Of a stretch of 64,000 nt of DNA, positions 5,566 to 36,736 are shown piece after piece. The DNA lies in the NCBI RefSeq assembly GCF_000002985.6, contig NC_003282.8:10912001-10976000 (forward strand). Direction: 5' to 3'. Position numbers and translations under genes: made by a program. The notes beneath the pieces are model-generated. The model made no database searches and was not told where the DNA came from. It worked only from the letters and a program-made list of their open reading frames with translations. How positions within the stretch are numbered: position 1 is the first letter of the stretch; every line of letters begins with the position of its first letter. Source of the stretch: Caenorhabditis elegans (lineage: Eukaryota > Nematoda > Chromadorea > Rhabditida > Rhabditidae).

Positions 5566-8106
5566 CAATACTTTTCGTGTTTCTAAATGCTTATTTTAGT
5601 CAAATTGACTCAAACTCGAGTGATTTTATCAAAGATTTCAAACTTGTATTTTATGCCTCATTTTCACATTCTGGTTTTTCTTGTAATTAAGGTACTAAAC
5701 TATAAAACTATATATTTTATTGACTCTTTTCATATTTTACTATTGGATATGTATATCAATATTAAACCCTCATAAACTAAACATAATTGTCTATTTTAGA
5801 GTTGAAGCCAACATTCTCTGGTGTGTATGGTTAAACTCCATGGCAACCCGACAGCTGTTCTTTTTGTTTTTGCACGAACACTTTCTGATTAGATTCTGAA
5901 TATGCGAAAACGCCTGCTCGTATAGCATTTCCATTTCAGAAAAATTCGGCTAGAAATTCAACATTTTAACTTACAGTAGCTCATTTACTGTTATATTGCA
6001 ATAATCTCTATTTATTTTCTCGGCATTCATCCCTCGAAATCTTTTTCTTTGCTCGAAATTGACTGGGAATTCTTGAAAATTATTCAGGAAAGTCTGAGTA
6101 GCTAAGAGATAAATCTTCAAAAAGGAGAAGAAAAGTTATATATGTCCAGGAATGGGTTACTGTAGTCATATGCTGCTTATTCGTATGTTTTTTTGGTGGA
6201 GCGGCAGCGATTTTAAGGTCCTCCGGTTCGCGGTGAGAGCTGTTAGTGTATATTTAGAAGAAGTTTTTTGAAAAATTCAGTCAGATGGACACTGATATCT
6301 TCTCGGAATACAGTAATCTTTGTGTGAAAAAGTTATATATTTTATTAACGATTTATCTTAGAAAAATTGTTAACTGTCAAACGAATGCTCTGAACATCTG
6401 AAAATCGTGCACTGTTCAATATGTTACACATTTTCGCTTTAAGTTCCGCGTTCAGCCTCACTTTCTAACCACGTCTGTGATTACACGTCTTCAGCGTTCG
6501 GTCATAAACTTCTGATTCTCCCTCCGTTTCGTCTATTTGTCGTAAGAATGTGTGTAGTCGTGTGAAACAAGTCTTTTTCGCCCTTTCGTTTTTAATCAGC
6601 TTCTTCACACGCAGACAGCTGATTCTGCTTTTGCAGTTATAATCTATGTCTTCTCATTCTCTCGCGCGCAACCATCGTTTATTTCAAAACGGGCGCATAA
6701 TAACTTTTTAATGAGTTTGATTTAGTTTTGAAAAATAATATTCACATTCCTTAGAAACTATGGAGATTCACAATTCGGCGAAATCAGTTTCTACATATTA
6801 CTGTGTACTTTTTACAACTTCTATGATTTTAAAGTGGCGAGTTTATGCGGAATGGTCTCGCCACGCTCTGCGATTTTTTTTTCAGAAATCTGGTATGTGC
6901 GCCTTTAAGATTACTGTAGAGGGTTTGCTGGCAAATCTCCAATTTTCTCGTTTCTCCCTTTTCTTCATTTTCGATTGTTCTTTTCCCAATTTTCTGTATT
7001 TTATGTAATTAGACATGCCAGAAAAATCTCTACAGTCATCTTAAAGGCGCACACGCCAATTTTTTCATGAGTTCGCAGTGCGTGGCGAGACCATTCCGCA
7101 TTGATACGCCTCCCTTTAAAACCGTAGTAAACAAACACAGTCTCAAATCTTCAATTAAAAATGCTGGCTCTCGGAGCCATAATTCCATGTTCTCTTTTTC
7201 TCTCAGTCTGTGTTCATTTTACATGCGTCTTCCTGCTTTCTCTTCGTTTTCTTTGTGTGCGCCCATCTTTCCTCAGCTGCTGGCCTCAAAAAAAAGTTAG
7301 TGCAAAAATTCACGTATTACTAGGAGGCACATGCGAGAACGCGTCGCGCACATAACATGAATAAAGTGTGATTGGGCAGGAGACCGAGAGATTATTGCTA
7401 GCGAATAGCATGCAAACAGAGGAGTGACAAGACGACGAGAGTGGACACTCGAGAGTAATGTTCGGCGGAGCGCACTTTCCTCGATTTTCGTGGGCCGACC
7501 CTGGTGGGCGCTGGGGGCTATTTCCTCTCGGTTTTTCGATTTTATCTATATTTTTTTCTGTTTCTCCGCTTATCTTTACCGCACGCAATTTCTGACGAAA
7601 AGGACACCGACCTACTGCAAAGTGGTCAAAGAATACCAGTCTCTCAATGCATTTTAGGTGACACATCAAAAAGATTCAGAGAGATGGAGTTTTCAATGAT
7701 TTGAGTTACTATACGATGCCTTACGTGTCTTGACCTACATTTAAAACTCTACCAAAGATCCTTGTCTAAACTTTGAAAAGCTGCTCGACCTCAAAAATTG
7801 GAGAAATATATATATTTAAATATGAGTCATTTTTCAGCTTAATTATTTATACAATATTAAGTTCAAATCAAAAGCTTAATAAGAAAAAGCTTAAAAGCCA
7901 ATTTTAAAGGAGTATAAGCTAATTTTCATTTCCGGGTTTCTATGACGTCTATCATAACACTCGTGATGCATCTTGTTTCATCACATGGAAATTTCTCGTC
8001 GGTACTTAAAATGTTCTTCTTCTCAAAGCTTTTAATTTCAATTAATATTAAAGTCAAACAAAAATGAAATTTACAGATCTCATGAAGCTATAAGCCAAAC
8101 TGAAAA
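5566..8106. other. Intergenic region upstream of rbr-2, containing a palindromic repeat
   Basis: About 2.5 kb without a supportable gene. Pyrimidine-rich stretches (6480-6660, 7160-7300) and the palindromic repeat at 6830-7125 create short open frames that I do not accept. A 3' splice site TTTACAG ends at 8076, 30 bp before the rbr-2 ATG, and is a likely leader splice or trans-splice acceptor. Confidence 0.4.
6830..7125. repeat. Palindromic MITE-like element of the GTGCGCCTTTAA family
   Basis: The left arm (about 6830-6945) carries GCGGAATGGTCTCGCCACGC and then TGTGCGCCTTTAAGATTACTG. The right arm (about 7010-7110) carries the complementary words CAGTCATCTTAAAGGCGCAC and GCGTGGCGAGACCATTCCGC in mirror order. 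Arms of about 100 bp flank a T-rich centre. There is no coding capacity. It shares the GCGCCTTTAA core with the elements in the rbr-2 and fic-1 introns, but its outer terminus differs. Confidence 0.75.
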
Positions 8107-25471: not shown

Positions 25472-27800
25472 ATGTCAGTTCGAAGACGAACTCATTCCGA
25501 TGATTTCTCCTATCTTTTGGAAAAAACCCGAAGACCTTCCAAATTAAATGGTACATTTTTGATTATTTTCCAAATAAAAACATATAATTTTCAGTAGTTC
25601 AAGAAGATCCGAAATCGGCCCCACCACAAGGTTATTCACTAACCACAGTCATCATTATCTCAGTTTTAGTATCACTAATCTGCCAACATTTTGTACCATA
25701 TGCAGTCTCTACGCTGCACACTGTAATAAAAAGTGAGTCGCAAAAATAAATATTAATATTTTCGCTTATTTCTTGAAATAAAAAATCAGCATTCAGATTC
25801 TCCAAAACAAAAGTCATCACCACCACCTTCTAATCGTCTCAACATTGGGTTTATCAGCGGAAATTCCCCGGAAAAATATGCGCCCGCTGTTCAAAAACCT
25901 ACTTTTCTAGTGGATCCTATTTATGATGAAAAATGGAAAGGAATTCAAACAGCAGTTCCGGTTATGAGCACCCAAACTGATGAAAAAAGAGAAAACGATC
26001 CGGCAAAAGTGAAAGAAGCTATTTTGGCCGCGAAGGCAGCTGGAAGATCTAGAAAAGATGGAAATCTGGAAAGAGCAATGACAATAATGGAGCATGCAAT
26101 GGCTCTAGCACCTACTAATCCACAGATTCTCATTGAAATGGGACAAATTCGAGAAATGCATAATGAGCTGGTGGAAGCTGACCAATGTTATGTGAAAGCT
26201 CTAGCATATGATCCGGGAAACTCAGAAGCTTTAGTGTGAGTTTTGAAGTTTTATTCACATTTTTAAAAATGAAAACTAATAACATTCGATTTTTAAAATT
26301 TAAATTTGTAGTAATTTCAGTAATTCTTGATCGACAATTATTTATAAAATGAAAAGCTGTAAGATTTCTTACAAAAGTATCAAAAATTAATCCAATATTA
26401 GAGCCAAATCAATTCAATTTCATAAAAAATGATTTATTACCTAGACGCTAGATGTTACGATTCTTGCGAAAAAATACGGTATCTGGTCTAGCCACGAAAA
26501 AGTTTTGATAGAGGAAGAAAGGTGTGCGCCTTTAAAGAGTATTTACTGTAATTTCAAACCTGAATAAATCAATAAAAATACTAAAATCTCAGCAAATTGT
26601 GGTAGTGCTGCAAAAAAAAAATTTTTATCAGTTAAAAAAAAGTTTTTTTCTCACGATTTTCTGAGATGATTGTATTTATTTTTTATTGTTCTAATCAAGT
26701 TTGAAAAATTAATTAATCTTCTTCGGGAAACTGTGAAAAATCGATCAAAATCCTAAAAAAATCGATAAAAATCCACGCGAGTTTGTAATTACAGTACTCT
26801 TTAAAGGCGCACATTTCTTCAAAAAATTTTCAGTCTTCGTGCTCGTACAACGCCACTGGTTAGTGCAATTGATAGAAAAATGCTTCGTTCAGTTCATGAT
26901 CTTCGAGACGAATTCAATCATTTACAACATTCGACAGCCTTACGAAGAATGATGAGGTTTGTTTTGAAAACTTGAAGATAGATCAACATTTTAATTTTAT
27001 AGAGAAACATATTTTCTGTATGTCTATCATACTGTTGCTATCGAAGGAAACACATTATCACTTGGACAAACTCGTGCAATACTCGAATCAGGAATGGTTA
27101 TTCCCGGAAAAAGTATTCGTGAACATAATGAAGTTATTGGAATGGATGCAGCTCTTCGTTTTCTGAATTGTTCTCTTCTTTCAAAGGAACATGATGAAAT
27201 ATCAATTGATGATATTCTAGAAATGCATCGGAGAGTTTTGGGAAATGCTGATCCAGTTGAAGCTGGAAGAATTCGAACGACTCAAGTATACGTCGGAAGA
27301 TTCACTCCTGTTTCTCCTGAATATGTGATGGAACAATTGAAGGATATCGTTGATTGGTTAAATGATGAAAGTACACTAACAATAGATCCAATTGAAAGAG
27401 CAGCTATTGCACACTATAAACTTGTTTTAGTGCATCCGTTCACTGATGGAAATGGTAGAACCGCTAGGTTATTGCTTAATCTTATTATGATGAGAAGTGG
27501 ATTCCCACCTGTAATATTACCAGTCGAGACACGTGCCGAATATTATGCATCTCTTCATGTAGCAAATTTAGGAGATCTCAGACCATTTGTGAGATACGTT
27601 GCAAAACATTCCGAGGCATCAATTCAAGTTAGTTGCATCAAAAATGAGAAATTCCAAAAAAAAAGTAATGTTTCCAGCGATACATCGGTGCAATGAAGAC
27701 ATCATCAGATAATATTCTCAACAGTGGAGATTCAAAATTGACACCTGAAGAGTCGGAAGTCAGCGAAAAAATCGAAGCGGAGTGTCGAGCGGGAAACTGA
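25472..27800 (+). CDS. fic-1: Fic-domain protein adenylyltransferase (AMPylase)
   Basis: Transfers AMP from ATP to hydroxyl side chains, mainly of ER chaperones of the Hsp70/BiP type, and can also remove it. Six exons: 25472-25550, 25595-25732, 25797-26235, 26834-26956, 27003-27627 and 27678-27800, in phase, give 508 residues, matching known FIC-1. A single membrane anchor lies near residues 40-62 (TTVIIISVLVSLICQHFVPY). TPR-like helices cover about 150-230 (ERAMTIMEHAMALAPTNPQI). The Fic core motif HPFTDGNGRTAR begins at the catalytic H404. The inhibitory-helix motif TVAIEGN puts its regulatory glutamate at E274. Exon 3 starts at the ATTCAG acceptor ending at 25796; the nearer upstream AG would give the wrong frame. 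Intron 3 carries a truncated palindromic repeat. Confidence 0.97.
26469..26816. repeat. Diverged palindromic element in fic-1 intron 3
   Basis: Left end AATACGGTATCTGGTCTAGC resembles the rbr-2 intron elements (AATACGGTACCCGGTCTCGA). Inside are TGTGCGCCTTTAAAGAG on the left and ACTCTTTAAAGGCGCACA on the right. The outer right terminus is missing: 17 bp after the last family base the intron ends at TTTTCAG (26833). Confidence 0.7.
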
Positions 27801-28958: not shown

Positions 28959-30867
28959 ATGAGTTTCGAAGAGAAAACTTTCAAATGGTTGATGAATCAG
29001 AAGTTCTATCATGGATATTTGCCAAGAGAAGATTTGCCATATGTGCTCAAAAAGAAAGGAGGTTTTATTTTAAGAGTTACAGAGGTATTTGACTAATATT
29101 TCTATCAGTTGGAGTTATTGGTAGCATATTTCAGAGAACAGTTGGTAAAGAACAAAAGAAGGATATTGTTTTGAGCATAGCTTGGCCTACAGAATCAGTT
29201 GCTATGATTGATACTAAAGACGTAAGGAATCTGAAATGTATTAGAATGACAAATTAGTTGTTATCTTTCAGATTAAAAACTATTTGATTGAAAGAAGTGC
29301 CAATTCTGTTTGGCTTGATTTGAAAATTTCATTTCATTCGATTGATGCTCTTTATAATCTCGAAAAAATGAACTTGTCCATCCAAATCTTCGAATCAAAC
29401 TTGGCCGACCAATTTGTTTGTTTTTTTGGGAATTCAAACATTCACAAATAAATCTTATCAAGAAAGTTGGGAAAGGTGCATACGGAGAAGTGTTCAAGGG
29501 AACGGTCACACGAGGAAATAAGACATTTAACGGAGCAATTAAAGCGGTATGTTTCGGTCTTTTTTTAATTTGGAAAAATACTCATCATAATAGAAGTTAA
29601 TGATTACCTATGTTATATTTCAGATGCGGAAAGATTTGGATGCAGGAAATGAGAAAATGAAGGAAGTAATGGCTGAAGCTCGTCTGATGAGAAGTCTCAA
29701 TCATCCTAACATTGTTCGTTGTCGTGGAATTGCAGTTCTTGAGCAACCTGTGTACATTGTCATTGAATTTATCAATGGTGGAGGACTAGACTCATATCTC
29801 AAAAAGAATAGTCAAACTCTTACTATGGATCAAAAGAACAGGATGGCAATTTCAGCTGCATGGGGAATCGAGTTTATGCATTCTCATGACATTATCCATC
29901 GGGACATTGCTGCCAGAAATTGTCTTTATGACAACAAAAATCTGGTGAAACTTTCCGATTTTGGACTTTCGAGGAAAGGATCAGTGTATAGGATGAAGAA
30001 GGCAATGAAGATGCCCACGAAATGGCTGGCTCCAGAGTCACTTACAACATTCACGTTCTCCGGAGCATCTGATGTCTACACTTTTGGGGTTTTGCTCTAC
30101 GAGATATACACGTGTCAAGAACCATATCTAGCAGTGAAAGCGGGAGAAGCAAAACGGTATATTCTCTCTGGAGCATTCCCCAACTTCACTAAACAGGCTC
30201 CACCGGAATTGAACGAAATAGTCAAAAAGAGTATATATCAATTGGATCCAGCCAAGAGAGACACAATGAAAGTGGTAATATAAAATATTACAATTAATCA
30301 ATAAAACATTTTATTTCAGATAGTCAAAAAGTTGGAGACTTGGTTGGAAGTTGAACTTGTTCTTGATGAGAACGAAAAACCTGAAATTGATCCAGAACTG
30401 AATCGTTCCAATGGAAATATGCCAATCCCAGTAGATTCATCGACAAAGAAGATGCGCAACGACACCGTGTGTATCCCACCACCAGAAGTATCTGCCGTTG
30501 TTCCTCCAGACGGATGGGCTCCAATCCCGGTTCCAGCTCCCACGAAGAAACCGAAAGTGTCAAAGAAAGAGAAAGAGAGAAAGAAGAAGACTTCGGTGAG
30601 CAGAGCCAAAACCCTTGTCAATTTCAATAAAATATTCATTTTCAGAAGGACTCCTCGATGACAACAACTACAACGAACACAAATGAGAGCGAGCCGCCTG
30701 CTGATGGTCAAGTAATTTCATCGGAATCCATGTCCTCTGCAAACAAAATGGTATCCGATGCAAAGGGAGGAAGTCCTGAAATGTTGACTCCGCCACTTGA
30801 AGAGTTGAAGCCATCTCCGAAAGAAACTGAAACTTTTGCGAATGAGAAAAATAGCACTGATAAGTAA
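28959..30867 (+). CDS. SH2-domain non-receptor tyrosine kinase (Fer-like, nematode-expanded family)
   Basis: Predicted cytoplasmic tyrosine kinase: an SH2 domain binds phosphotyrosine and the adjacent kinase domain phosphorylates tyrosines. Exons: 28959-29084, 29135-29221, 29272-29415, 29463-29546, 29624-30274, 30320-30595 and 30646-30867, giving 529 residues. SH2 at about 14-110 (FYHGYLPRED, FILRV with the phosphate-binding Arg). Kinase: glycine loop GKGAYGEV, Lys146 in GAIKA, catalytic Asp241 in HRDIAARN (Ile replaces the usual Leu), DFG Asp259, and WLAPESL. The activation loop keeps a tyrosine (GSVYRMKK). The tail is Lys-rich, then Ser/Thr-rich. Oddity: the SH2 frame and the kinase frame differ. 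I joined them with a 47-bp intron (29416-29462) that has a fair donor but a poor acceptor (TTATCAAG), and this removes residues that look conserved in the other frame. The gene may be frame-shifted or a pseudogene. A germline/sperm role is common for this family but is only inference here. Confidence 0.75.
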
Positions 30868-31116
30868 TCTGTCTGAATGAATATTCCTATATTTTTCTAC
30901 TTTGAAACTTGTGTCTTTTTTTTTGTTGGGAAGTAGACTTAATCTGAACGTAGTTTTCATATAGTAAAATGTTTCCAGCAAATTTTAATATTTTATTAAA
31001 TATTAATAGTAAAAATAAAGCAGTAATTTGGCAGTTTTTCAAAATGTTAACAAACTGGTAAAATCTTGCAATTAGTTTGATTTTGACCCATTGACGGTGG
31101 TGGCGAGAGGTCGACT

Positions 31117-31125
31117 TAGCTAGCC
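31117..31125 (+). repeat. Left 9-bp direct repeat flanking the giant palindrome (putative target-site duplication)
   Basis: TAGCTAGCC lies immediately before the first base of the palindrome and is repeated in the same orientation right after its last base, at 34583-34591. If it were part of the inverted repeat, the right copy would read GGCTAGCTA; it does not. Confidence 0.75.
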
Positions 31126-31450
31126 GGCCTTCATTCCGAGAGGACAAACTTTTAGGGTGGCAAAGTATTTTTGGGGACAAAGTATCCAAAGTGACATGGT
31201 ATCCAGTCGACAAAGTGCCATTTGTCTCTGACCGGGCGTATCTTCGGTGACAAACTTTTTCAACTAGTTTTTTATATATATATTTCTCGATCGATTTTTG
31301 TTTTTTTTTTCACTGGAATAAGTTTTTTCATGTAATTTTCAGCGGATTTTCGGCCTTGACTACTCACAATTGAATGTATGAACAATGATCTTTTGGGAAA
31401 ATACTGTAAAACGTCCAACTAACTTGGAATATCGTAAGATTCTTACTTAT

Positions 31451-32172
31451 AATCTGATCCTTAAGCTCCGAAGGATCACAGGGGGTACCTCCTGATGATC
31501 TGATCCTTAAGCTCCGAAGAATCAGAAGGGTACCTCCTGGTGATGTGATCCTTAAGCTCCGAAGGATCACAGGGGTACCTCCTGGTGATCTGATCCTTAA
31601 GCTCCGAAGGATCAGAAGGGTACCTCCTGGTGATGTGATCCTTAAGCTCCGAAGGATCACAGGGGTACCTCCTGGTGATCTGATCCTTCAGCTCCGAAGG
31701 ATCACAAGGGTACCTCCTGGTGATCTGATCCTTAAGCTCCGAAGGATCACAGGGATACCTCCTGGTGATCTGATCCTTCAGCTTCAAAGGATCATAAGAG
31801 TACCTCCTGGTGATCTGATCCTTCAACTCCGAAGGATCACAAGGGTACCTCCTGGTGATCTGATCCTTAAGCTCCGAAGGATCAGAAGGGTACCTCCTGG
31901 TGATCTGATCCTTAAGCTCCGAAGGATCAGAAGGGTACCTCCTGGTGATCTGATCCTTAAGCTCCGAAGAATCAGAAGGGTACCTCTTGGTGATCTGATC
32001 CTTAAGCTCCGAAGGATCAGAAGGGTACCTCCTGGTGATCTGATCCTTCAGCTCCGAAGGATCACAAGGGTACCTCCTGGTGATCTGAACCTTAAGCTCC
32101 GAAGGATCAGAAGGGTACCTCCTGGTGATCTGATCCTTCAGCTCCGAAGGATCAGAAGGGTATCTCCTGGAC
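31451..32172. repeat. Left tandem array of a 45-bp unit (about 16 copies)
   Basis: The consensus has a CTGATCCTTAAGCTCCGAAG half followed by GATCAGAAGGGTACCTCCTG and GTGAT. Each unit contains a small hairpin: GATCCTT pairs with AAGGATC across 8 bases. Variants alternate AGAAGG/CAAGG/CAGGG and TTAAG/TTCAG. Because 45 is a multiple of 3, several frames stay open on both strands: a 15-residue repeat of the type ITRRYPSDPSELKDQ on the minus strand and RRVPPGDLILKL on the plus strand. I regard these as by-products of the period. Confidence 0.9.
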
Positions 32173-32297
32173 AAAGTATCTTAGCGGACAAACAAAAATT
32201 ACCGGAAACTGATGTAAAGCATGGTGAAATGGAATCCTATGGACTATTAGAAATGTTCAATAGGTGTATTCAGGACTGTCCGTCAAAGTAAAACAAA

Positions 32298-32370
32298 GTT
32301 TGTCAGACAAAGTTCGAACCTGGGACCTGTATCATGCAAAGTGGGCTCACTACCACTACACCAGCCATGC
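32298..32370 (-). other. tRNA-like module in the left arm
   Basis: Mirror copy of the right-arm module at 33474-33546. On the minus strand it shows an A-box-like TGGCTGGTGTAGTGGTAG and a perfect B-box GGTTCGAAC at 32320-32312. It cannot form a good acceptor stem, so it is not called as a functional tRNA gene. Confidence 0.6.
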
Positions 32371-33473
32371 GAAAGTCGGCGCGCCTCATCGAAGGCTATT
32401 ATAAAACTTAGTTCGCACGAGTATTATCTCCATTCAACAATAAATAACATCTCTCCACAAGAATTTCTTCATGAAACTGAAGTCGTTTGACTATTTTTAT
32501 CGCTTTGTCAAGTCGAGCATAGGGTCTTTTAATTTTTTAAACATGGAAAATCATGAAAGCTGCCTGTTCCTTGTTTCCTGGATCGAAATCGAGGTATCTG
32601 GTCTGAATTATTTTCTGAAAAATGATATTTTTCATGTTCATCGTGTGTTTCTATGTATTTTGAGCTAGAAAGTCGAACAAAAATGCTAATATTAAATCGA
32701 TAAATGGATCAAATAAAAATAAATTTTGGGCCTAATCGAATTTCCTCCGGATATTGTATTTTATCAGGATTTTATGTTTCTAAATTTTTTATAATGTGTT
32801 TTATAATAAAATTCGTCATTATTTCCTTCATTTCAAGCAAAATTTAACAGTTCGAGCTGAAAAATAGTTGCTGCAAAAAATTTAATTCATTTCGATGAAT
32901 ACGGTATACGGTCGGTGTTTGCGTACTTTGGCGTTTGCGTGTAAAGCATCTTATTCGACGCACGAAACTTTCAGTGAAAATTACCGCAAATTCGGCATCG
33001 AAAAGGCACATTACGATGGAAATAATGACGAATTTTATTATAAAACACATTATAAAAAATTTAGAAACATATAATCATTACAAAAAACAATATCCGGAGG
33101 AAATTTGATTAGGCGTAAAATTTATTTTTATTTGATCCATTTATCGATTTAATATTAGCATTTTTGTTCGACTTTCTAGCTCAAAATACATAGAAACACA
33201 CGATGAACATGAAAAATATCACTTTTCAGAAAATAATTCAGGCCAGATACCTCGATTTCGATCCAGGAAACAAGGAACAGGCAGCTTTCATGATTTTCCA
33301 TGCTTAAAAAATTAAAAGACCCTATGCTCGACTTGACAAAGCGATAAAAATAGTCAAACGACTTCAGTTTCATGAAGAAATTCTTGTGGAGAGATGTTAT
33401 TTATTGTTGAATGGAGATAATACTCGTGCGAACTAAGTTTTATAATAGCCTTCGATGAGGCGCGCCGACTTTC

Positions 33474-33546
33474 GCATGGCTGGTGTAGTGGTAGTGAGCC
33501 CACTTTGCATGATACAGGTCCCAGGTTCGAACTTTGTCTGACAAAC
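33474..33546 (+). other. tRNA-like module in the right arm (RNA polymerase III A/B-box-like)
   Basis: Reads CATGGCTGGTGTAGTGGTAG, then GAGCCC, a TTTGCATG stretch resembling an anticodon loop with TGC (Ala), then GGTCCCAGGTTCGAAC. The A-box-like segment is at 33478-33492 and the B-box GGTTCGAAC at 33524-33532, with tRNA-like spacing. The acceptor stem does not pair, so this looks like a decayed tRNA or SINE head carried by the element. Confidence 0.6.
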
Positions 33547-33679
33547 TTTGTTTTACTTTGACGGACAGTCCTGAATACACCTATTGAACATTTCTAATAG
33601 TCCATAGGATTCCATTTCACCATGCTTTACATCAGTTTCCGGTAATTTTTGTTTGTCCGCTAAGATACTTTGTCCAGGA

Positions 33680-34255
33680 GATACCCTTCTGATCCTTCGG
33701 AGCTGAAGGATCAGATCACCAGGAGGTACCCTTCTGATCCTTCGGAGCTTAAGGTTCAGATCACCAGGAGGTACCCTTGTGATCCTTCGGAGCTGAAGGA
33801 TCAGATCACCAGGAGGTACCCTTCTGATCCTTCGGAGCTTAAGGATCAGATCACCAGGAGGTACCCCTGTGATCCTTCGGAGCTTAAGGATCAGATCACC
33901 AGGAGGTACCCTTCTGATTCTTCGGAGCTTAAGGATCAGATCACCAGGAGGTACCCTTCTGATCCTTCGGAGCTTAAGGATCAGATCACCAGGAGGTACC
34001 CTTCTGATCCTTCGGAGCTTAAGGATCAGATCACCAGGAGGTATCCCTGTGATCCTTCGGAGCTTAAGGATCAGATCACCAGGAGGTACCCTTCTGATCC
34101 TTCGGAGCTTAAGGATCAGATCACCAGGAGGTACCCTTGTGATCCTTCGGAGCTGAAGGATCAGATCACCAGGAGGTACCCTTGTGATCCTTCGGAGCTG
34201 AAGGATCAGATCATCAGGAGGTACCCCCTGTGATCCTTCGGAGCTTAAGGATCAG
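33680..34255. repeat. Right tandem array of the same 45-bp unit (about 13 copies, inverted)
   Basis: Same unit as 31451-32172 in reverse orientation. The order of sequence variants matches the left array at both ends, but about three units are missing from the middle. This fits unequal exchange or slippage after the palindrome formed. Confidence 0.9.
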
Positions 34256-34582
34256 ATTATAAGTAAGAATCTTACGATGTTCCAAGTTAGTTGGACGTTT
34301 TACAGTATTTTCCCAAAAGATCATTGTTCATACATTCAATTGTGAGTAGTCAAGGCCGAAAATCCGCTGAAAATTACATGAAAAAACTTATTCCAGTGAA
34401 AAAAAAACAAAAATCGATCGAGAAATATATATATAAAAAACTAGTTGAAAAAGTTTGTCACCGAAGATACGCCCGGTCAGAGACAAATGGCACTTTGTCG
34501 ACTGGATACCATGTCACTTTGGATACTTTGTCCCCAAAAATACTTTGCCACCCTAAAAGTTTGTCCTCTCGGAATGAAGGCC

Positions 34583-34591
34583 TAGCTAGCC
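34583..34591 (+). repeat. Right 9-bp direct repeat flanking the giant palindrome
   Basis: TAGCTAGCC, identical and in the same orientation as 31117-31125. See the left copy for the argument that it is a target-site duplication. Confidence 0.75.
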
Positions 34592-35268
34592 AGCGCGGGC
34601 TCCCTGTGACATAGAGATGCGTTGTTTGAGATGTTTAAGACATTTTTGAACATTTGCATGGAAAAATGACATCCCTATTATCGGATTCATCTGGAAGAAC
34701 TCAAACGCTTGGAATACTAAATTTTTAGCGTCCACCATCACCCGACTGATAGTGAGCTAGGAGCCCGTTCTTCGATCGCGATGTGCCCATTGTGCTTAAT
34801 GATACTTGAGCCCCCCTGAACATCGCGATTTATCAGCTTATTCAATTATCACTTGATTGAACATAATTTTTTTGTAACTAGTTGAAAATAGCTGATTGAT
34901 TTAATGTTGAGCGTGACTATACTCTCATTGTTGTGAGGTAACTCAAACGAGGAGAAGTGCATCGGGTGGTTTTGATTTGTTTAAATTCCTTGTTAGTTTT
35001 ATTTTACAGCAAAATAAAAATTGTTAATACATGTATTATCATCAATTGGAGAAGACGAAAAATACATGAAAATTGACGAAACCGCCTGTGATTATTAAAA
35101 ATTGCAAATTAAGGGTTTTACCGCTAAAACCTAACGAGGCTCAATTGATGGGATTTCAATAAGAGCATTTTTTTGAGTCCTTATAATAATCATGAAGATT
35201 TGTCTATATAAAAAGGTGAAAACAATAGAAATATTGACAATACTTTATTGGGGCAAAATCAAAGTTCT
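34592..35268. other. Spacer between the foldback element and the membrane-protein gene
   Basis: No gene seen. A short inverted pair (CGATCGCGATGTG near 34772-34784 and ACATCGCGA near 34820-34828) is the only structure. The right end holds the 3' UTR of the minus-strand gene. Confidence 0.4.
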
Positions 35269-36736
35269 CTATGCTTTTGGTGGTTCAGCAGATCCGAACA
35301 ATCCGTATACGAGGGCCTTCGAGAAGAGGAACGAAGAGACCAAGAGAATCTGATACATGTGGATCTGAAATAAATAGTTTAGAAATAAATAGAAAAATGT
35401 AAAGTCTCACTCTATTCTGAGCAGTCAAGTTCTTGAAGGCAACTTGAAGAAGAGCACCAGAAGCTGCACTGTAGAGAGCAGACAAGAGCAAGTAAGAGAA
35501 CGAAAGTGATCCAGAGACAAGTCCGAGCACAAGTTGAGTTCCGAATGCGGCTCCAACAGCTCCGCCGAGCAATGGAGTACGGGCGGTTCCAACTTGTCCG
35601 GCAATCAATGGGTACGCAAACGCAATGACCAATGGAGTAACGAAACCAAGTGGTTGAGCACTCAGATAAGTGTATGAAATCGAGTGTCCCATCAAAAGTC
35701 CTTGAACCAATGCCAAAACCAAAAGTTGGAATCGTGTTCCCGATGTCGATCCATCCTCATTGTTCAGTTGATAAGCACCGAACGCAGGAATGGCAAGAGT
35801 TGCCAAAATGGCCGATCCACCTCTCCCAATGAAAATTCCGAAAATTGGAGAAAGTACATATCCTCCAATAATGCTTGCAATTCCAGCTCCAAGAAGCAGA
35901 ATTGAAGACCATCCGAAAATTTCGACGACTGAGGACGTTGGAAGACCAATTGGAGATTGTGTCTCTTGGAGAGCCGAGATGAGCTCTTGTGTTTGAGGCT
36001 GGATTTGTGATTGGAGTTGCTGGAGTTGTCCTGAACCTTCTTGTTGGAGAGCAGCCGCACGTTGACGTAGTCCTGAAAGCAGTTATTTATATATACAGTT
36101 AAGGTCACAGAGAGCACAATGGACTCATCGCGATTGAGGAACAGGCACTGTGTGCACGTTACGAAAATAATCATTTGCAATGCTCACTAGAGAATTGAGG
36201 CACATTTTTTGGCACTTTCACATAATCCGCTTGTTCCCATCGTTAAATCAAAGTTTTTTTTCCGGAAAATTATAAAGGAATATTTGTACTTTGTGAAAGT
36301 AGCTTTACTTCCAATTCCGAAAGTTCCGAAAAATTGATCAAAAACTGATTCAAATATCAATCGTCGTCGCTCATTGCCACTTTGAGTAATTTTTCAAATC
36401 TCCCAATTGAAACTAAAGTTGTTTTCTGTATACATTTCCGAAACAAAACTTCGACACAACAACGAGTGCCGATAAATTTGTTGCGCAACTCTGGTGCCAA
36501 TCCTTAACAGTATATCAAAACTAACCTTCAGCAGCTTGCTGAATATCCTGAACGTAGTTGGCATATGTCTTGGTAACAAAACCAATCGATGCATCTTCCT
36601 GTCCTCCGAGTTGTGAGGCACCTCCTGGAGTAACAGTTGGAGCGACAGATGCGTCCGCTGGTTGGACTTCAGAAGCCATTGTTGGTGCTCCAGTGACAGC
36701 ACTTTGGTCCATTGCAGATTGGCTTCCGTCGGCCAT
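35269..36736 (-). CDS. Multi-pass membrane protein, tentatively BI-1/TMBIM-like
   Basis: Exons 36736-36526, 36072-35411 and 35364-35269 join in phase and give 322 residues. The N-terminal third is soluble and rich in Ala, Ser and Gln (MADGSQSAMDQSAVTGAPTM), followed by a short amphipathic Gln-rich helix (LRQRAAALQQEGSGQLQQLQ). From about residue 125 there are six or seven hydrophobic segments, including SSILLLGAGIASIIGGYVLS, FQLLVLALVQGLLMGHSISY, LGFVTPLVIAFAYPLIAGQV and TQLVLGLVSGSLSFSYLLLS. The C-terminus is GSAEPPKA. The spacing and the Gly-rich third segment (LVQGLLMGHSI) recall Bax-inhibitor-1-like proteins, but I cannot show a diagnostic motif. Third positions favour GGA, CCA, CTC and GTC, suggesting strong expression. 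Confidence 0.72.

Follow-up and report, generated by a model that had tools for sequence, protein, structure and literature searches.

A near-perfect palindrome of Caenorhabditis elegans is very probably a non-autonomous foldback transposon of a Mutator-like family

The 64,000-nucleotide stretch of Caenorhabditis elegans DNA analysed here (the window; contig NC_003282.8, positions 10,912,001 to 10,976,000) contains a near-perfect palindrome of 3457 bp at window positions 31126-34582. In all likelihood, this palindrome is a non-autonomous foldback transposon of a Mutator-like element (MULE)-like family that was inserted between two genes. Counting this one, the C. elegans genome contains roughly two dozen related copies; the palindrome exemplifies a known kind of element, not something new. 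Foldback elements, including FB of Drosophila, carry long inverted repeats with tandem units and are associated with a 9-bp target duplication.

The element is flanked by the 9-bp direct repeat TAGCTAGCC in the same orientation (31117-31125 and 34583-34591), and its inverted repeats, which contain short tandem units, extend over most of its length. An alignment of the whole arms (31126-32830 against 33017-34582) gives an identity of 98.4% over the ungapped columns, with 1541 matches, 25 mismatches and 139 gapped columns, 135 of which fall between the arrays. The terminal sections, 31126-31451 (326 bp) and 34258-34582 (325 bp), align with 324 matches, one mismatch and one gap, and the inner arms, 32171-32830 (660 bp) and 33015-33673 (659 bp), with 647 matches, 12 mismatches and one gap. 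All 13 inner-arm differences are clustered within 32541-32830, the innermost 290 bases of the arm, the first being at 32541. The arms are unequal in length because the left array holds 16.0 copies of a 45-bp unit and the right array 13.0, as counted by Tandem Repeats Finder (TRF). The unit itself holds a hairpin; single-stranded DNA folding of two units gave -9.9 and -7.6 kcal/mol, with z of -3.97 and -2.57. The original prediction of a near-palindrome bounded by a 9-bp direct repeat in one orientation is borne out by these alignments in coordinates and features, as is its statement that the arms are nearly identical outside the arrays (324 of 325 compared terminal bases and 647 of 659 inner-arm bases). 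The parts of the element are as follows.

31117-31125, plus strand: left target-site duplication TAGCTAGCC, the same as 34583-34591
31126-31451, plus strand: left terminal section, with the terminal inverted repeat (TIR) and right-end block (palindrome alignment, block match)
31452-32170, plus strand: left array, 16.0 x 45 bp with inner hairpin (TRF, 92% matches)
32171-32830, plus strand: left arm, inner palindromic core (alignment to the reverse complement of 33015-33673)
32831-33016, no strand: spacer of 186 bp at the palindrome centre, with a counterpart in other core-bearing copies
33017-33673, minus strand: right arm, inner palindromic core (palindrome alignment)
33674-34257, minus strand: right array, 13.0 x 45 bp, inverted (TRF, 95% matches)
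34258-34582, minus strand: right terminal section, with TIR and right-end block (palindrome alignment, block match)
34583-34591, plus strand: right target-site duplication TAGCTAGCC, the same as 31117-31125

The genome searched comprises 100,286,401 bases in 7 contigs, and the window corresponds to C4:10912001-10976000. A query of 284 left-end bases gave at least 41 matches, including the window's own two ends (40 of 62 candidates scored). The 23-bp terminus, with up to three mismatches, occurs at 52 places genome-wide (26 forward and 26 reverse), as compared with 0 and 0 for the reversed control. Sequence was taken for 28 loci, including the window copy, and L037 and L041 were added afterwards; L010, L011, L012, L014, L015, L017, L031 and L035 have one complete end only and lie outside the repeat count. 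An exact 9-bp direct repeat is present in 18 of the 22 two-ended copies (16 of 20, plus L037 and L041), and one further copy, L022, has an exact 10-bp repeat. The 18 repeats that were tabulated (17 of 9 bp and one of 10 bp) are all different from one another, and the lengths lie within the 8-11 bp of MULE target-site duplications. The ends of the family are symmetric, GGCCTTCATT/AATGAAGGCC. A genome search with the ends had been proposed as a check of the original prediction, and the further copies that it revealed share the termini and carry different 9-bp direct repeats. Directly beside the one-ended copy L035, a 25-bp unit is repeated in tandem at least 74.6 times (L035:1634-3500).

Empty sites were sought with joined flanks for four copies: the window copy, L029, L033 and the related 5.1-kb copy L024. 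The joined flanks of L024, in which the 9-bp repeat is present once, are identical across the junction to C4:11317858-11317952 (100%); over a longer stretch of this paralogous empty site 215 of 222 bases agree, and a single ATCACCTTT is present there. The L024 flank belongs to a dispersed repeat, and 41 of the 43 matches listed span the junction (40 of 123 candidates scored), the other 40 of these at 78-88%; the remaining two are the flanks of L024 itself. The family thus offers the two marks of a mobile foldback element, namely copies with different direct repeats and an empty site (of L024 only), and the claim of a foldback-type transposon with a 9-bp target duplication is upheld on both counts.

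Two loci of the family, L024 (C3:7678666-7683746, 5081 bp) and L032 (C4:4189311-4194400, 5090 bp), have exact 9-bp target-site duplications and the same termini as the palindromic copies, and they are 98.9% identical to each other over 5100 aligned columns. The TIR of L024 is approximately 229 bp, with 218 of 228 compared bases identical between the ends, in keeping with the long TIRs of MULEs. Both loci contain a minus-strand multi-exon gene with the motifs LDTTF and ITDGEAAF followed by RCDIH and IECVNGTIK, and the gene of L032 also has a C-x2-C...CSH cluster. Read by eye, these motifs may represent the D, D and E of a DDE transposase together with the C-x2-H feature of MULEs. They fit in part the MULE signature quoted in the available portion of PMC2725143, in which D...C-x2-H agrees and the intervening residues are inexact. 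When the 336-amino-acid (336-aa) transposase-like frame was compared with the genome, L024 and L032 matched at 99-100%, and two diverged relatives were found, at 36% over residues 173-269 and 25% over residues 179-328. The 36% relative, L038:137-1538 on C5, has one stop inside the match and no meaningful match in Pfam, NCBIfam or PDB; DGTF and HDGE can be seen by eye in later frames, beyond the scored match. A separate minus-strand frame, L032:4540-4980, shows weak immunoglobulin-like similarity (BACON_2, E 0.0018; Motile_Sperm, E 0.0037), under the curated cut-offs. The suggestion that the palindrome lacks a transposase and has a partner elsewhere is therefore supported for the family, by L024 and L032, but no such partner with the ends of the window copy was found.

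These ends are A-type, as are those of L009-L012 and L014-L016 and the left end of L013, and A-type ends are at least 92.9% identical to the window left end. Judged by its ends, the window copy falls into a subfamily that is sister to the B-type copies. L013:2681-3629 is chimeric, its left end being A-type and its right end B-type; its lack of a direct repeat is expected of a recombinant. A comparison of the 270-bp ends of 19 two-ended elements, including the two 5.1-kb copies, reveals that an element's own arms are closest to each other in six cases, tied in four, and less close than those of another element in nine. The window copy is among the six, with 0 differences between its own arms and 18 from the nearest other element. 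The arm identity had been ascribed to recent insertion or ongoing gene conversion; for the window copy it fits both conversion between the arms and recent formation, but only six of the 19 elements behave in this manner.

By sequence comparison, the palindromic copies are close to the 5.1-kb copies, and specifically to their right end. A 76-bp block inside the TIR of L024 and L032 is present at the right end and absent from the left end, whereas 17 of the 18 two-ended non-autonomous copies tested have it at both ends (in L027, one of the 17, the right-hand match is 23 bases). By this distribution, the non-autonomous copies are right-end/right-end structures, presumably inverted duplications of that end. 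In the window left terminus, the block lies at approximately 31363-31431, with 94% identity over 69 bases. Additionally, 31 of 33 B-type non-autonomous ends are at least 97.9% identical to the L024 right end over approximately 300 bp, the exceptions being the right end of L027 and the left end of L028. In the aligned copies, the array starts at the point where the right-end homology ends. A genome search with the 45-bp unit (38 candidates, all scored) listed 145 matches, all of them, as we read the positions, within stretches taken for this family, including one in L017 approximately 3 kb from the L017 end. The one-ended A-type copy L012 has 27.6 units (L012:7387-8627), more than the window copy.

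The inner core has a wider distribution. Window positions 32171-33010 match five family loci (L022, L029, L030, L036 and L037) at 88-91%, and shorter core pieces are present in several further family loci. One core arm is also matched at 68-70% at C2:1814224, C5:15429157, C5:18950410 and C5:13057976; in the three of these four places inspected (L039/L043, L040 and L042), the arm occurs once, with no inverted copy. At L043, a piece of the spacer comes after the single 68% arm homologue, the two being in linear order. This locus contains a 3229-bp element of another family (L043:814-4042, C2:1812713-1815941) with the ends GGCAAATACT, arms of approximately 970 bp at 99.8% identity and the 9-bp repeat TAGACAAGA, and its end has at least 65 matches in the genome (40 of 79 candidates scored). 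Because the core is single in this long-TIR family and doubled in the family of the window, it looks like cargo. The minus strand at 32312-32363 contains stretches that we take, from their consensus, to resemble the RNA polymerase III (Pol III) boxes, B-box-like at 32312-32320 and A-box-like at 32353-32363. The A-box-like stretch, the most conserved of the core, is unchanged in 12 aligned core arms, which are related and not independent rows, and it is also conserved in the single-copy relatives; the B-box-like stretch varies among the 12 arms. A tRNA gene in the core was considered and rejected: ARAGORN reported 0 genes in the window, and Rfam gave no tRNA at E <=1 in 30000-36000.

Arms and arrays alone could come from a segmental inverted duplication with slippage, or from minisatellite expansion, with a 9-bp repeat present by chance and no transposon involved. 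The occurrence of the termini at 52 places against 0 in the reversed control, the different 9-bp repeats at other copies and the empty site of L024 speak against such a non-transposon duplication, which was rejected and which we consider extremely improbable. A number of observations do weigh against the interpretation as a mobile MULE-like family to which the window copy belongs. Among the 22 two-ended copies, the direct repeat is imperfect at L023 and absent at L013 and L019, the left end of L019 also being incomplete, and the empty-site search in the reference genome returned only their own flanks for the window copy, L029 and L033, so that an empty site is established for the related 5.1-kb copy and none was found for the window copy. 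L028 has the 76-bp block at its right end only; L019, for which the right end alone was tested, matches 23 block bases, and L041 lies outside the block test. The 45-bp unit was searched for in the 5.1-kb copies and was not found. In a plain reading, the L024 gene is interrupted by an in-frame stop near 6069, with another frame difference near 5570, and the L032 gene breaks frame near 6340; neither 5.1-kb copy therefore reads as intact. The gene product has no meaningful match in Pfam, NCBIfam or PDB, and no match to PF10551, the Pfam model for MULEs, was found in the genome, the same search being positive in 3 of 14 control genomes. Because of this lack of matches, the MULE label rests on target-site duplication length, TIR length and motifs; these are consistent with the Mutator-like assignment of the original prediction but do not prove it. 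The missing PF10551 match would also suit a foldback transposon of another superfamily (hAT-like, Rehavkus-like or a new DDE type) that makes 9-bp duplications, as would the zinc cluster of L032, C-x2-C...C-S-H, the spacing of which differs from the SWIM zinc finger consensus C-x-C...C-x-H. Rehavkus elements, according to the available part of PMC6446971, have 9-bp target-site duplications and a minisatellite before the 3' TIR; the same source lists long TIRs and target-site duplications of 8-11 bp as MULE features, and the agreement of D...C-x2-H with part of the signature in PMC2725143, inexact as the residues between are, likewise argues for MULEs. A non-Mutator superfamily appears rather unlikely.

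The source of the transposase for the window copy is a further matter. A-type ends are 82-86.5% identical to the L024 right end (the window's own approximately 85%), as compared with at least 92.9% to the window left end; a search with the 336-aa frame gave no match in the A-type loci, for which frames were not listed, and at high identity it returned L024 and L032 only, both of which are non-A-type. It is accordingly quite possible, if not what we would assume, that the element which moved the window copy was an A-type autonomous one, no longer present in the genome, and not a B-type 5.1-kb element. On the other side, the window core is approximately 90% like the cores in B-type copies and L013 combines one A and one B end, which indicates that the two groups exchanged sequence and might share a transposase.

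Under the interpretation of the palindrome as a non-autonomous member of a MULE-like family, a transposase of the 5.1-kb type, acting in trans, would bind the TIRs and move the palindrome with a 9-bp staggered cut. The non-autonomous copies may have arisen through inverted duplication of the 5.1-kb right end, by snap-back or template-switch repair. Growth could then have proceeded by expansion of the hairpin-forming 45-bp unit and, further, by uptake and doubling of a core segment that is single in another long-TIR family. A more far-reaching combination, in which palindromes are made in a directed manner (only the right end being inverted, duplicated and spread), a core with Pol III box-like motifs is traded between families with unrelated ends, and the transposase lineage lies outside the Pfam MULE model, seems improbable to us.

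Among described elements, the nearest kind is Tm1, a Mutator/Foldback family of root-knot nematodes (PMC3169594), likened here by description and not by sequence homology. As far as the accessible part of that paper describes it, Tm1 shares with the window family a nematode host, composite inverted repeats of variable length with tandem units, mostly 9-bp target-site duplications, and the coexistence of non-autonomous copies with copies encoding a putative transposase. However, the 7-bp end motifs of Tm1 are asymmetric and its units measure approximately 14 bp, whereas the window family has the symmetric ends given above and a unit of 45 bp. CEMUDR1 and CEMUDR2 are Repbase families of autonomous Mutator-type DNA transposons in the same species (PMC2725143, in the part available), and CEMUDR1 is also named in the accessible text of PMC7917558, PMC6873666 and PMC5554785; the 5.1-kb copies may be CEMUDR1 or CEMUDR2, families known here by name only. 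Similarly, the C. elegans Repbase repeats LONGPAL1 and LONGPAL3 appear as piRNA targets in the accessible text of PMC9683057, under names that point to long palindromes; a LONGPAL-type name may already exist for the window element, the comparison being by name only. A literature search, with most subscription journals outside its scope, found no paper on a C. elegans foldback/Mutator family.

In the window, the element sits between two genes. The gene to the left, on the plus strand, encodes a protein-kinase domain; its frame is 29594-30283, and further frames extend to 30867. To the right is a minus-strand frame with a ZYG-11-interactor domain (35285-36082). As judged from frames and not from mapped exons, both genes appear to point their 3' ends at the element. 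A Fic/DOC-domain frame lies upstream of the element at 26995-27696 (Pfam E 3e-22). Two other annotations of the arrays were rejected. Rfam gave four matches in 30000-36000, all to mir-23 and all at 21.8-27 bits where the gathering score is 52, and a microRNA reading of the 45-bp units was dropped on this ground. A 277-aa frame in the array had two Pfam matches, neither with a stretch that passes alone, one of them (PF10400) at 23.0 bits, barely above the cut-off of 22.4; array frames are open because 45 is divisible by 3.

To our knowledge, the origin of foldback transposons from ordinary transposons is not well settled. Here the reference genome of a model animal holds an empty site, a core in single-copy form, and both a parent-like 5.1-kb element and right-end/right-end derivatives, and because all of these forms are present together, the order of the steps (end duplication, unit expansion and core capture) is directly testable. 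Additionally, long near-perfect palindromes such as this one would be likely sources of double-stranded RNA, which drives silencing in C. elegans.

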